Source: Lota lota (lineage: Eukaryota > Chordata > Actinopteri > Gadiformes > Lotidae). Taken from it: DNA of 64,000 nucleotides. The notes under the pieces were generated by a model that saw only the letters and a program-made list of their open reading frames with translations, was not told the DNA's origin and did not search any database. Shown here piece after piece: positions 4,150 through 41,588 of the stretch (positions within the stretch are counted from its first letter, which is position 1; each line of letters starts with the position of its first letter). Location: assembly GCA_026745465.1 (NCBI GenBank), contig JACYXH010000205.1:690001-754000 (forward strand), in the 5' to 3' direction. The position numbers were made by a program, and so were the translations under genes.

Positions 4150-5610
<1,461 letters not shown>

Positions 5611-11662: not shown

Positions 11663-11892
11663 CTGCAACGCAGGAGGAAGGAAAACAGGTAGCTAAATAT
11701 TAAAGGGGTGTGGATGAAAAAAACAACCTGTGCTAGCTGTTGTGGCTAACCACTTACATTTCCATTACAGACAACAATATCGATCCTCCCGGGCATGTTA
11801 TCCACCTTGGGCATTTGGCATCCCACATCCTCGTGGTGGAATCGTTGTTGACTCAACTTTACACCCATCTCCTGGTTGTCCTGGATACAAAC

Positions 11893-12731
11893 CTGGATTG
11901 GCAGCATCTTCTCTCTAAGCACTTTCATCTTAATGCAACTTCCTGCATGCCTGAGGGCACTGACAGCTTCGTGGTGGGCCATCCCCTGCACGTCAAGTCC
12001 GTTCACCTGGATGAACCGGGAACACACCATACTTCAGGGCAGGTGGGAGAAAGTAGGAGCTAAAATTTTAGGGTTGATTATTAAACCCTTGCACGTGTAT
12101 TCCCTGCCAAGATTAATCCCCCCCCCCCCCCATGTCAGTCTATTTTATAATAATATTAAAAAGATTGATCATTTTGTTTAGCATTTTCTTTCAAGTAGCC
12201 TACCTCCCTCTGGATTGTAATATAGCTTGTGTCAGGATGCCCTCTTCAGGTCAAAATGAGAAACAGCTGTGTCTCAAGATAATTCGAAAAAAGTGAGAAC
12301 AGCCAAACATAGTCACTGCAACATAACTTGTATTTGCCCCTGTTGTGTCAGTCAGTGAATTTCAAGTCCATGTCAGTAACAGAGATTATGTAAATTAAAC
12401 AATAATAATTTCCCCCCAAACCTCCAGCAATCTGTCTCCAACGTGGATCCCTGCCTTATCAGAAGGACCTCCTTCAGAAACTCTTGAAATGAAGATGCCC
12501 TGAAACAAAAATAAAATACACACAGACAGTACATCAACCTAGAACAATTTTATATTTCTTTCTTTTAAAGTGAAAATCACAGTGGATTATAGTCTTAGCT
12601 TTAGCCACCTTAAGCCTTTTTGGTGGCTAAACTGAATTAGTGCTTACTTCATCATGTTCTCTGTAGGGCAGAGAACCTTTCCCTCCAGCGATGCTGATGC
12701 CCAAACCGCTGCTCTGATCGCACACTTTGAT
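11893..12731 (-). CDS. Three exons encoding one complete Scribble PDZ1-type PDZ domain
   Basis: Exons 12731-12648 (28 codons), 12499-12422 (26 codons) and 12006-11893 (38 codons) all have AG/GT borders and phase 0 junctions. Read in order they give GLGISIAGGKGS (the carboxylate-binding loop), GIFISRVSEGGPSDKAG, VGDRLLEVNG, then HHEAVSALRHAG and KMKVLREKM, a full PDZ fold of about 90 residues. It is closest, from memory, to the first PDZ of Scribble (GIFISRVSEEGP, VGDKLLEVNG, HHEAVEALRGAG). There is no stop or frameshift. PDZ domains bind C-terminal peptides in cortical scaffolds. The module lies 3.1 kb downstream of the lrrc1 stop on the same strand, where human has MLIP. It may be a separate gene, alternative 3' exons of lrrc1, or a relic that still has open frames. 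Exon and domain calls are strong; gene identity is open. Confidence 0.85.
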
Positions 12732-12935
12732 CTGCAACTACAAAGTTTCTCTCCATTAACAACTACAGCAAAGAGACAACTTTCAGTGTCTTTGAAGCAG
12801 ACTTCAACTTCACAACAGGATAGTCCTACCGCTTCAGAGCTAAAGAAAAACCATACCAGCTCTAACAACACAACAGCTCCTAAAAACATTTTGAGACATA
12901 CAGTAGATCAAGCAGTGAAGATCTGATGCAGTTAC

Positions 12936-13179
12936 TCTTAAAGGCACTTTGGAGACGCGTGGAGGAGCTGGGGCCTGCTCTTCTCTGGGAGACTGGTACG
13001 CCTGGTATACCATGGAGGAGGAAGTGGAGGAGGGGACATCTAAGGCCTTTGAAAGACCTCCACCGTGACCGGCTCCAGGATCTAGAGCTTTGAACCTGGA
13101 TAACTTCCCATCCTCTTGAATGTCCCCCCTTAGGCGGCGAAACACCAGCGTCGTGTCACTCTCTGAAAATGGGTTTTCT
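12936..13179 (-). CDS. Candidate exon directly upstream of the PDZ exons
   Basis: This open stretch runs from an AG acceptor at 13179 to a GTAACT donor after 12936. It ends in phase 0, so it reads straight into the PDZ exon as ...RVSKVPLR + IKVCDQSSGLGIS, which makes a natural first PDZ beta strand. It encodes about 80 residues rich in Ser, Pro, Gly and charged residues (FRRLRGDIQEDGKLSRFK near the start), like a disordered linker. The other two minus-strand frames are closed. The acceptor tract is short and only moderately pyrimidine-rich, and the exon starts with one carried-over base, so its 5' edge is uncertain. No homology is recognised beyond its position, which matches the linker before PDZ1 in Scribble. 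Confidence 0.5.
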
Positions 13180-15846: not shown

Positions 15847-36674
<20,828 letters not shown>

Positions 36675-39600
36675 TCATCTCCGTCCTAGTTGTTTTTTAA
36701 ACGCTTTTAATGACTTTGCCATCATTGGAGCGACTCCTGCAATAACAGAAAATACACACTCATTACTCTGGTTGGTAATGTTCCACAGTGTATCAGCAGA
36801 GAAAATACAAATGATTGAAGTGCAAATAATTAATTTAAACGTCCCATCTCTGAGAACAAAACACAAACCATGAAAACTAGAAAGTAGTTTCTAAATCCTT
36901 CGTTTACGAGTTCATTCTCCCTCTCCTCCCCATATCCCCCCAAAGCCAAAGCGTCATTCCATCTAGTCTTACTTGTTCTTTTACGAGGGTCTTGTGAATT
37001 TGCTGTCCCTGAATTGGTGGGGGCAGATTTAGGAGCATCAAGACAGCTCGGTCTCGCTCGGTGTTCGTGAATCTTGACACTGGAAGGAAACAACAGTTCA
37101 TATTGTAGTCCACAAGGTCAAAGTTCAGGGTCACCACAGGGCTCTTTACAATGCCACCCAGTTTCTAGAACCTCTACAAATATACACACACCCGAGGAAA
37201 TGCAGGCCGTATTCAATTCATGCTTGTTTATGCAAAAATCGACAGGGCAACAGGGTTTGGTTGTAGTTCTCATGGCCACAGGAACCCACCTGGCTCTGAC
37301 TACGCTAGGCTGGATGGCACCAGCTGTTCCGTAGATCTCCTGCTGAATCCGTACATCCCTCGGAGGCTTAGCAACGGTGTGAATAAACGCCATCTTCACC
37401 TGGCGGCCTACACAGCAAGGGCACAAGCAGTTGATACATACTTGCAAACAGCGTGGGTATTCAAACAAACCACTGGGCTTTACTCGCATGTAAAAGGAAA
37501 TGTTTCATTTTAAAGTGAAAACATTTCCCGGGGAGTTCAACAAACCAAACCTTTTTTGTTATTGGTTCTCTTGTTCCTGCAGCATTTCATTTTTTTTTTT
37601 CACTAACTTAACCAGCGAACAGATGGTCAGGTTACATTTGGCTACGCAGGACAGAATTCATGGGTCTGTCCGTTCAGACCAACTAGTTGAAGCATAAAGC
37701 CCCGAAGACATTAGAACCCTTCAGCTAAACCTCCTGAAAAGGATGAACCAAATTAGGAAATTTTGCTTGATAATTTATAACTTAGAAGCCCTTCCATGGC
37801 ATACATAATTAGGGCATGACTCTAAATAAATTAGCAGACCTAATTTATTAAAAAATGAATAGTCACCCATCATAACGTTCACTTAAGACAGATAGATAAC
37901 TCATTAATACAAAACTGTGGGGAAAATTGGATTATAGCGCTAGTTGATCATATTGAATGGCCAACCATGTAATGCTGGCCCAGTAAAATAATAGAACATA
38001 TAGCCCAGTACAATAAGATAGCCTACCTTGAGGTTTCTTTGAATGAGCAGAGACAATGGTCTTGGCCAGTCTCTTGAATTTGTTCTCCCTCTCCTGAGAG
38101 AGCCGGAGGTACATCTCCTTCCAGGACTCGTACTCCAGGAGCCTGGATCCTCGGAAGTCTCTCTGGCAGTGTCTCCCCCACAAGTGGTCGGACACTCCGA
38201 TGTAGCTCTATGGAGGGGGGGAAACATTGTTCATCCTTTCCAGGCAGAATAGTCTAGCGGTTAATGCTGTTTGACTCCTGAGTCAAAAAAATGGTTTCTA
38301 CTTCAAACCCCAATGCTACACTACCTGTAGGCATACTTGAGCAAGATGACTACGTGGTTCTGGATTAAAGTGACTTAATGACTAAACAGATAGGTCAATG
38401 GAAAATGAGGTTCCAAAAAGATTACCCTTTTCCAATTGTCTACACACATCTAAAAACAAATACATCTCCAGATTCTTACAGGGTTGTATTCTTCAATTCG
38501 AAGCAGCTGATCCGGTGAACATCTCTCCATTACCGGCTCCAGGATCTCAAACGGGACGCCTCCGGTATCGTAGAGCACTGAGAGAACATTCTAATGTAAA
38601 CATTCACAATATTGAACGCCTAAATACAGGACAGTTGGCTTCACTCACTGTCTATGTTGTTCTGGAGGGTACGGATGCACTGTTGATACAAGCTCATCAT
38701 GCTCGGTAGGAAGGTGGTCTTGTTCCCAGAGTACACTTGCATTTTCTTGTTTAACCGTTGGCCGGTGAAGTGAGTCTCCTCAGTGTCATCACACGATTCT
38801 TTCTCTACTGTAAAAAGTTGTATTGAATAAAAAATTAAAAACAGTAGGCCTCTCAGTAACATCACACATTTCTTACAACTGAAAGACGAGATGCTTTCAG
38901 ATGGTCTACAGCACACATATTTCTACTTATGTACACACAAACTAACCTCTCTTGGGCTCATAGTAGTCAACAATGGAGAACTTGTCACATTCAGGCAGGA
39001 ATTCTGGCAAGGGAGTGTTGAGCAAGTCCATTACATTATCTTTAACCTAATATAAATAAGAAAGTGTTAGTCCTGAACCAGGCCGCGACAATTGTGGTAA
39101 TTATAATGGCAATATGTACATTAATTATACGCTTAAAACTGTCCACAAGTAAGATTGCAGTATACCTTATTCATGCCGTTTTCCGAGAGCGAAGGCCACT
39201 TGAAGGTCTTCGCTTCTCGTTGTTTTGGTGCTTCCCCCTTCTCCCGAGTCTTGGGCTTTTTTTTCAGAGGCTGTTTGGATGCACTTCCCACCTTCCGTTT
39301 CAATGCATTGGTGTCATAGCTCAGGTAAGACTCAAAAGACATGGACGATTCCTCTAAATCAACCTCGCTTGAATTATTTAGTTTTATTTTGGCCTTTTTG
39401 CTACTGGTGTTTGAATGTCCATCACTTTCCGATGTTTTCATCATTTTTAGACACGGCATCTTCTTTTCAACAACTTTCTTCTTCGTACTTATGCTTACCC
39501 AAGAGCTTGCCAACGTTTCTGTACCCTCCTCTTTCTCACTGGCTGAATCAGGTAAAGTCTTTGAGTGTTTGGCTTCAGCTTTAGAAGGGAGATGATGTTG

Positions 39601-41588
39601 AACAGGCAGCTCTGGGGTTGATTTCGGATTTGGATGTTTTTTCTTAGATTCTTTGTCTTCATATAGTTTTTCAGTGTCTGAAACGCTATGTGCTGTTTCT
39701 TTAGGGGTCGGCCTGCACTTTGAGTCCTTGCTAGAGGTTTTGCCTCCATGCACAGTGTCATGATGACTTTCATGTTTATTATTATTTTCATCTTCTTGAT
39801 GTGTTTTTTTATGGTTCTTGTTTACATCATCCTTTTTCAATATACTACATTTGTCCTGTGGAATTTGAGAAGGCTCTTTTTCCAGAGAGCTTCCCAACAG
39901 ATCTTCTTGTCTTTTCTTCTCCTTACGTGGTTCCTGTGGTGAGGCAGGTCTTTTATCGTAAACTTTCTTTGAACCCTTAGTTGCTGTTGGTGTTCCCTGG
40001 CTCTCGCCCTGAGATTGTAAGCAATCTCCTCTTTTGTCCTTTTTTCCACTGCTTGTGTGGATTTTCTCCTCCAATCCAGCTTTCACTTGTGTAGTTTGTG
40101 AAGTGTCTGAATCTACTGGATTGCTGTGTTCAAGCAAATATAATTTAGAAAAATTACCCAAAGAATTACTGCATTAAATAAAAAAACGGAGAAAGCAATG
40201 TGAAACAGCACCTTATGGAGTCCTTAGGAACTAATTTCTTCCAGTATCTCACTAGCGATTTAGCAACTTCTCCGACCTCTTTATGTTTCCGCAAAGAATT
40301 TACCGTTTTGCCAATACCGGTTTCCTGTCAGGATTTTAAATGCAGATATAAGCTCAGCTACTAAAATGTTTGAACCAGGAGTACCAAAGCAACAATTGTA
40401 GTCACATATGTTCAACTATATCAAACAAAAGCCTTACGGAAAGAATATCTAAGGAGACATCCAGATCCTGAAGTTTCTGCAAGGTTTTCAGAAGCTGTGA
40501 GAAAAATAAACAAAATGCATTAACACCTCCATTATGTTTCATGTCTATCAGTTTGCAAATACAATCTAGCTCAATCGTAAACCATTTGTGTGCTTGATAA
40601 AGTGCATGTATTAATGTTAAATGGAATCAGATTTTTGATGAAGGCATAGGCCTTCATGCCAAATATGGTAATTCTGGATTTGGATCACTAGAGAGCGAGG
40701 CTTGCTGACTGTGCATTTGGAGAAGGAGCTATCTATGGGAACCCCACACTTTGGCTGCTCATTTTACTATGGCCTATAAATGGGTAATGCAAATGCTCCC
40801 CTGTTTGGTTTGAAAAGCATTAGGTTACACACAAGTAGGCCATTTAATTAATTAAAACAACCCATGTAATGTCTGGGCAATGAAAGTCTCGGGCCTTACT
40901 TCATGAGCAATGATTGAGTGGTCTACCAAACCAAGTGACCAATGGCAAACCAACAGAGACCTCTTGCAGTGATGACGGACAGCAGCCATAAGTTGAACAA
41001 CTGGAAGTCAAGTTAATTTTAGCACCAAGGCAACACAACCTGCCACACAGGGACGACTGTTATAGCATTCGGTCAGCACCCTGCGTAAAACCTAAGCTGG
41101 GCGCAAGGAATGGGGACTTCAAGGAAAAGCCACTGAGACACACCATTAAGAAACTACCGTTTTGAATCACTGTTTTGTCATCATTTAGCTTTCAACGACC
41201 TTGAAAAAATGTTTTAGAAACCTTGATCTTTATAGGCGTCACAACATGCCGCGTTGTGAAGAAAAAAACAAAACGTTATCTTAATGTGTAAACATGACCT
41301 GGTATGTCATGGACGCGTTTATAAGCCGTTCATTTGAAATAGGTCTGGGTCGTTTCATTACTTAAAATAAACAACTTTGAACGTGTGGACATGAGTGTCT
41401 GATAAGCCCAGCTCTCGTAAAGCCATGTGTGTAAAGTAAAGTAACAACACAAGCCAACATGGCCCCCCTACTGTTTGTGGGTGTCATTAAAGGCCTGCAC
41501 AAACGTAGCATACCGTAGTAGTCTTCGACGTGTCCTTGAGTTGTTGTTTGAGCTGTATCACTTTTTTCACCAGATCCGAGCTGGCCAT
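36675..41588 (-). CDS. eloa: Elongin A-like RNA polymerase II elongation factor, 11 coding exons
   Basis: Coding exons in order: 41588-41514, 40494-40438, 40324-40212, 40168-39166, 39046-38947, 38807-38649, 38577-38480, 38207-38027, 37407-37290, 37079-36973, 36736-36675. They join in frame to 690 codons; human elongin A has about 770. Residues 1-82 are a TFIIS N-terminal (LW) domain ([18 protein letters not shown]). The 1-kb exon 4 encodes a Lys/Ser-rich disordered region. Residues about 488-497 ([10 protein letters not shown]) fit the BC-box that binds elongin C, followed by [20 protein letters not shown] and by [19 protein letters not shown]. The end is [18 protein letters not shown]. Family role: nuclear, suppresses Pol II pausing and is the substrate adaptor of an elongin BC-cullin 5 ubiquitin ligase. 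Human ELOA lies elsewhere (chromosome 1), so this may be a fish paralogue rather than the strict orthologue. Confidence 0.92.
38245..38395 (+). mobile_element. tRNA-derived SINE fragment
   Basis: TCTAGCGGTTAATGCT (A box-like) is followed by a degraded B box and CTGTAGGCATACTTGAGCAA, a core shared with the repeats at 60.7 and 62.4 kb. It lies in an intron of the elongin A-like gene. Confidence 0.6.

Follow-up and report, generated by a model that had tools for sequence, protein, structure and literature searches.

A Scribble PDZ1-type domain between LRRC1 and MLIP in Lota lota, a candidate remnant of a split Scribble duplicate

We describe here a PDZ domain encoded in a 64,000-nucleotide stretch of the genome of the fish Lota lota (assembly GCA_026745465.1, contig JACYXH010000205.1, C205:690001-754000; hereafter the window, in whose coordinates positions are given unless a contig is named). 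It lies on the minus strand, 3.1 kb downstream of the stop codon of the gene that we take to be LRRC1 (Lano) and on the same strand, and it is followed by MLIP, the three being collinear. We regard it as practically certain that this PDZ is real and derived from PDZ1 of Scribble (SCRIB), and the arrangement of LRRC1, PDZ and MLIP is probably a Scribble duplicate that was split. The genome searches covered 575 Mb in 867 contigs.

The domain is assembled from the following exons:

12737-12648, minus strand: PDZ exon A (LQIKVCDQSSGLGISIAGGKGSLPYREHDE), 90 nt and 30 codons, equal in length and borders to the scrib PDZ1 exon
12499-12422, minus strand: PDZ exon B (GIFISRVSEGGPSDKAGIHVGDRLLE), 78 nt and 26 codons, equal in length and borders to the scrib PDZ1 exon
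12006-11758, minus strand: PDZ exon C, with the acceptor placed as in scrib PDZ1 and the frame open to 11758

All three are phase 0 and join into one open and complete PDZ domain, which ends within exon C near 11902 and matches the Pfam profile PF00595 with 70.5 bits (E 1.6e-19, residues 8-85, cut-off 23.2). The first-pass annotation had described three minus-strand phase 0 exons encoding a whole PDZ close to Scribble PDZ1, on the lrrc1 strand and 3.1 kb past its stop, all of which is borne out. As for its borders, the exons stand but their outer limits were revised: the start at 12731 is a second possible acceptor six bases into exon A, and the end at 11893 is one possible donor of exon C (CAG/gtttgt, 98.3rd percentile) while that at 11758 (AAT/gtaagt) is stronger, scoring above all 358 background GTs that were ranked with the donor table. 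The donor of exon B (gtttgg) is weak, at the 88th percentile. Codon log-odds, trained on 1050 codons of the window and compared with overlapping open windows from a single 6.9 kb intron stretch, gave p 0.016 for exon A, 0.14 for exon B and 0.007 for exon C.

The assignment to Scribble PDZ1 is based on two comparisons. Among single-domain matches in the PDB, Scribble chains came first with 113.9-117.9 bits, and they were judged to be PDZ1 from their sequence, as the match table carries no domain numbers for Scribble chains; the remaining Scribble chains reached at most 93.5 bits, and DLG PDZs taken singly scored near 55. The 97.8-130.5 bits of DLG4 chains that contain two or three PDZs come from summing their domains. 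When the exons of the scrib gene of the same genome (contig C781) were joined, BLASTP gave 115 bits for PDZ1, 75.9 for PDZ2, 59.7 for PDZ3 and 55.8 for PDZ4, with 60.7% identity to PDZ1 over 89 residues (54 of 91 identical without gaps; 53% over 36 for exon C). The best match to SCRIB PDZ1 that had been predicted was found both among PDB single domains and with joined exons of the own genome. Two of the outcomes named beforehand as speaking against it could be discarded: an unrelated PDZ family is ruled out by the PDB ranking and the scrib comparison, and a recent retrocopy, or a recent duplication of scrib, by the retained introns and an identity of only 59-61%. In an exon-by-exon genome search, the top rows other than the domain itself were PDZ genes in which a single exon holds the domain (C55, 37%, E 6.6e-8; identities among the top three rows were 37% and 43%), and the three scrib exons ranked lower (E 1.2e-4, 1.7e-4 and 0.067) with identities of 48, 61 and 65%. 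Further PDZ domains were sought at E up to 0.05 on the minus strand of C205:670001-764000, which extends the window by 20 kb towards MLIP and by 10 kb at the opposite end; PDZ2-4 were not found there, and the scrib PDZ open frames matched only the PDZ1 exons. The GLGI loop and the helix histidine (HHEAV), whose roles are well established for PDZ domains, are kept, so that by analogy with known PDZ structures this is likely a class I-type domain binding C-terminal peptides.

Differences from scrib PDZ1 fall at the first, second and third codon positions in 32, 22 and 58 of 91 codons. Since the frame, the borders and this third-position excess have been kept in an old copy, coding selection appears to have acted through most of its history; the substitution pattern indicates that the window PDZ is old and selected as coding sequence, and that it is protein-coding today is very likely. 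We consider it highly improbable that the exons are an untranscribed pseudogene. Such a relic would fit the weak donor and unremarkable codon score of exon B, but the open frame and the splice borders are kept, the substitutions are concentrated at third positions, and an identity of 59-61% to scrib implies an age at which neutral sequence would have decayed.

Upstream of the PDZ lies the following gene:

ATG near 35218, stop 15849-15847, minus strand: LRRC1 (Lano), with LRR and LAP-specific region, delimited by the exon 1 open frame, the last exon and the scrib matches
15996-15847, minus strand: last LRRC1 exon, starting in phase 0 and homologous to an internal scrib exon

Eleven LRRC1 stretches (27377-15916) match exons of the own scrib gene in order (E up to 0.05, scrib exon 1 left out of the comparison), and the last exon is 69% identical over 29 residues to the scrib sequence PQG-LHRRATPHPSELKVMKKVIEERRNE. 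The protein ends in ...NNGVTTSV, which has the form of a class I PDZ ligand. In the available text of one paper, LAP proteins are said to carry none, one or four PDZ domains, and LRRC1 is the only member described without any (PMC12731447). It has to be mentioned that a PDZ chain in the PDB, 8boj_A (also 8buw and 8bv7), bears the depositor name 'Leucine-rich repeat-containing protein 1' and scores 60.3 bits against the window PDZ; from this naming, some database protein called LRRC1 carries a PDZ. Moreover, a repeat-like stretch in an LRRC1 intron (30408-30718) matches the 5' scrib region C781:2039544-2040166 in several frames, and is probably a dispersed repeat common to both.

On the other side of the PDZ, the profile search with PF15274 detected MLIP on this contig alone (C205:685408-686665, LRRC1 strand, two matches from three candidates):

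C205:686653-683686 (window about -3350 to -6310), minus strand: MLIP exons M1, M2 and M3, forming the joined PF15274 match

Joined, the three exons reach 75 bits (E 7.8e-21, cut-off 27). They lie outside the window, 15-18 kb beyond the PDZ exons, and a large serine-rich open stretch that starts at C205:689066 is a putative further MLIP exon, although no Pfam profile matches its first 263 residues taken by themselves. The first-pass annotation had read the PDZ as part of an ancestral LRR-PDZ gene at a position occupied by MLIP in human. The former part holds, as an old Scribble-type PDZ1 with scrib borders, next to lrrc1 and on its strand, is best read in this way; the latter needs changing, for MLIP is present in the fish as well, downstream of the PDZ and on its strand. 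In excerpts of papers on cow (PMC5483290) and turkey (PMC8470100), LRRC1 and MLIP appear as neighbours in gene lists, with TINAG after MLIP in the turkey list; no Peptidase_C1 match that could mark TINAG beside MLIP was listed on contig C205. Past M3, two near-identical stretches about 2.8 kb apart (about C205:683500-682800 and 680700-680001), with translations equal nearly letter for letter, apparently represent a tandem duplication extending beyond the analysed piece.

A link between MLIP and the Scribble tail is suggested by exon M1 (PHKIKSSYKSLAAIPTNTLLLDQQ, 24 codons, YKSLAAIPT), which resembles scrib exon S1 (NAGAGPLKLDYKTLAALPTTSLQKVNR, 27 codons, YKTLAALPT). Both are phase 0-0, and the distance from the tyrosine of the motif to the donor is 17 codons in each. 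Their ungapped score is 49, which none of 2000 shuffles of M1 reached in 15,000 residues of scrib frames, and a control translation of 241,702 residues gave M1 a score of 38 at best. Y[KR][STA][LF]AA-hydrophobic-P-T, written as a degenerate DNA pattern, was found at two places in the 575 Mb, M1 and S1, and at none when run backward as a control, with about 0.2 chance matches expected by our own arithmetic. The scrib tail (C781:2067100-2076750) contains three YxxxAAxP stretches (YKTLAALP, YKAFAAVP and YQSMAAVP), which may be a short motif repeated internally; the second stretch scores 46 against M1. A similar motif is presumably present in human MLIP and SCRIB. From the sequence comparison, M1 seems to stem from the tail of SCRIB.

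Additional candidate exons surround the PDZ:

13635-13408, minus strand: candidate exon E1, phase 0-0, upstream of the PDZ, with codon log-odds above 200 of 200 background windows
13184-12948, minus strand: candidate exon E2, upstream of the PDZ, with an uncertain donor and codon log-odds above 146 of 146 background windows
11662-11564, minus strand: candidate exon D (SDLEMEPNWKLFKREPDARTITNPFEGEKNTMT), phase 0-0, after the PDZ, with splice sites and codon log-odds p 0.027

Together with the extension of exon C beyond the PDZ (p 0.007), these look coding, although we are less sure of them. In fact, a second open frame of E1 also exceeds each of the 214 background windows drawn for it, and part of the E1 score is therefore owed to base composition. 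The genome search found no second copy of E1 or E2 (next matches at E 0.16 and 0.78), D has no Pfam match, and none of E1, E2 and A-D matches PF15274. Another candidate exon, 2763-2599, was rejected as not coding-like (codon score p 0.50).

Phase alone permits joining the PDZ either to LRRC1 or to MLIP. In the former case, LRRC1 would skip its last exon and be spliced to the PDZ exons, and a PDZ-bearing Lano isoform would result; the penultimate LRRC1 exon has a strong donor and a phase 0 end, E1, E2 and A all start in phase 0 so that the frame could hold, and the PDZ lies only 3.1 kb downstream on the same strand. However, the last LRRC1 exon retains an intact TTSV end, two AATAAA signals (15234 and 14525) precede E1, and the possible donor at the LRRC1 stop is weak (69th percentile), and we regard such an isoform as unlikely. 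Because of the intact stop, these two signals and the weak donor, the PDZ is favoured in a downstream transcript, probably that of fish MLIP, and we put the chance that both share one transcript slightly above even. It is rather improbable that the PDZ is instead a small separate gene that starts and ends independently and is joined by splicing to neither neighbour. An in-frame ATG is present upstream of E1 at about 13713, and the gap between D and the large putative MLIP stretch measures 12.5 kb, with no joining exon identified among the open frames listed, which exclude low-complexity ones and were not scanned individually against Pfam. Nevertheless, no terminal exon was identified for such a gene either, D and the large stretch are phase-compatible, and a domain within a larger gene would more probably be retained than a stand-alone fragment.

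The resemblance of MLIP to SCRIB could also be a convergent short linear motif, with only the PDZ being derived from Scribble and MLIP having a separate origin. This is the alternative to which we give most room, although we still doubt it: the match covers about 16 residues, the adjoining MLIP exons have no scrib match, and the scrib tail contains the motif in three copies, a kind of recurrence that functional short motifs can show. Against it are the equal phases of M1 and S1, their equal distance to the donor, the collinear position on one strand with LRRC1 and a Scribble PDZ1, and the occurrence of the pattern at only two sites in the genome.

Several results weigh against a split Scribble gene and should be kept in mind. 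M1 and S1 match over a short length, and the third of the scrib motif stretches, with 36 against M1, does not exceed the 38 of the control. The DNA pattern was composed after M1 and S1 were known and is incomplete for serine and arginine codons (it lacks AGY serine and CGN arginine codons), so its information is that there is no third match. M2 and M3 show no similarity to post-PDZ scrib frames (z 0.4 each), and the beginning of the large MLIP stretch gave nothing convincing in the 21 comparisons run; its z of 3.0 (1 of 200 shuffles), the highest of them, was obtained against frames that include non-coding DNA. E1, E2, D and the extension of exon C likewise showed no convincing scrib similarity within these 21. 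None of five scrib tail pieces, one of them a join of three, matched the Pfam MLIP profile. Scans of viral and prokaryote collections gave 3 and 23 pattern matches, none of these being a relative, which a vertebrate gene would lead one to expect. E2 lacks a good donor in phase 0, since those at 12948 and 12936 are middling (81st and 86th percentiles) and the strongest one, at 12857 (99th percentile), is phase 1 and does not fit exon A. Finally, the PDZ trees are weakly supported: in the corrected tree scrib PDZ1 is nearest by path (0.77 vs 1.68 for PDZ2) with 1 of 9 inner branches starred, and the earlier tree, with 81/69 for the grouping with scrib PDZ1, included wrongly oriented rows. A genome protein search with the MLIP exon retrieved only itself, with one candidate that passed a first look, and is uninformative on scrib. 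As M2, M3 and the other pieces lack a convincing scrib likeness, the MLIP-scrib link is limited to the short exon M1 with its borders, rarity and location.

Taking all this into account, we propose that a Scribble duplicate with LRRs, PDZ domains and a long tail broke into two genes, an explanation that as a whole we hold to be reasonably probable. The front half would have become LRRC1, now ending just past the LRR/LAP region, and the back half would have lost PDZ2-4 but kept PDZ1 in this fish, its tail becoming MLIP; the window PDZ exons would be the selected coding remnant between the two halves. The PDZ would most likely be translated at the N-terminus of a long fish MLIP protein and bind C-terminal class I peptides. 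We infer the fission event and its age, the transcript shared by PDZ and MLIP, and the biochemical role. The more complete statement, that LRRC1 is the head half and MLIP the tail half of a second Scribble gene, and that fish MLIP keeps Scribble PDZ1, has in our opinion about even chances. A class I-type PDZ could also bind the TTSV tail of LRRC1 and so rejoin the halves in trans, but this is a long shot.

If this proposal is true, it gives an origin to MLIP, the muscle A-type lamin-interacting protein, which in the available text of two papers is described as unique in sequence and restricted to amniotes (PMC7998221, PMC11240681). As an excerpt of a fish muscle study has mlip among its genes (PMC9456278), the presence of MLIP in fish is not itself new. 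Furthermore, a gene split would explain why LRRC1 is the sole LAP protein without a PDZ, and a lamin-binding muscle protein would have begun within a cell-polarity scaffold, making Scribble-type partners conceivable for MLIP. An evolutionary question also becomes testable, namely when the second Scribble gene broke and which lineages kept PDZ1. No paper joining MLIP with SCRIB and LRRC1 was found, in a search of mostly non-subscription literature that does not establish absence from print. In this literature, the combination of MLIP and scribble returned only one unrelated paper, and none was found on LRRC1 and scribble evolution in teleosts, on the evolution or conservation of the muscular LMNA-interacting protein in zebrafish, or on gene fission with ohnologs and PDZ domains in vertebrates. 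For LRRC1 with MLIP, the excerpts of the cow and turkey papers merely list neighbouring genes.

Other features of the window are listed for completeness:

between 43461 and 45491, plus strand: KLHL31-like open frames, which we take to be KLHL31
39136-40173, minus strand: an open frame of 346 residues, rich in lysine and serine, lying between LRRC1 and KLHL31
4211-4373 and 4540-4730: very long CT runs, with several long GT runs elsewhere within the first 10 kb

The fish locus can be compared with four known systems. With SCRIB PDZ1 it shares the domain sequence, the exon lengths (90/90 and 78/78 nt), the phase 0 intron positions, the GLGI loop and the helix histidine. However, SCRIB has four PDZ domains whereas only the PDZ1-type was found here; in addition, the sequence after PDZ1 has no match to the scrib linker, and the fish PDZ is parted from the LRR portion by the LRRC1 stop and 3.1 kb. 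ERBIN and LRRC7 (Densin-180), which belong to the LAP family, have a single C-terminal PDZ and are set beside the fish locus by description only. LRRC1 (Lano) is the same-strand neighbour, with LRR/LAP exons collinear with scrib, and differs in that a Scribble PDZ1 lies downstream of the fish gene. Lastly, MLIP shows here the three conserved exons and an adjoining LRRC1, as in the cow and turkey gene lists cited above from excerpts, but the gene is that of a fish, one of its exons resembles scrib and a PDZ lies upstream of it.
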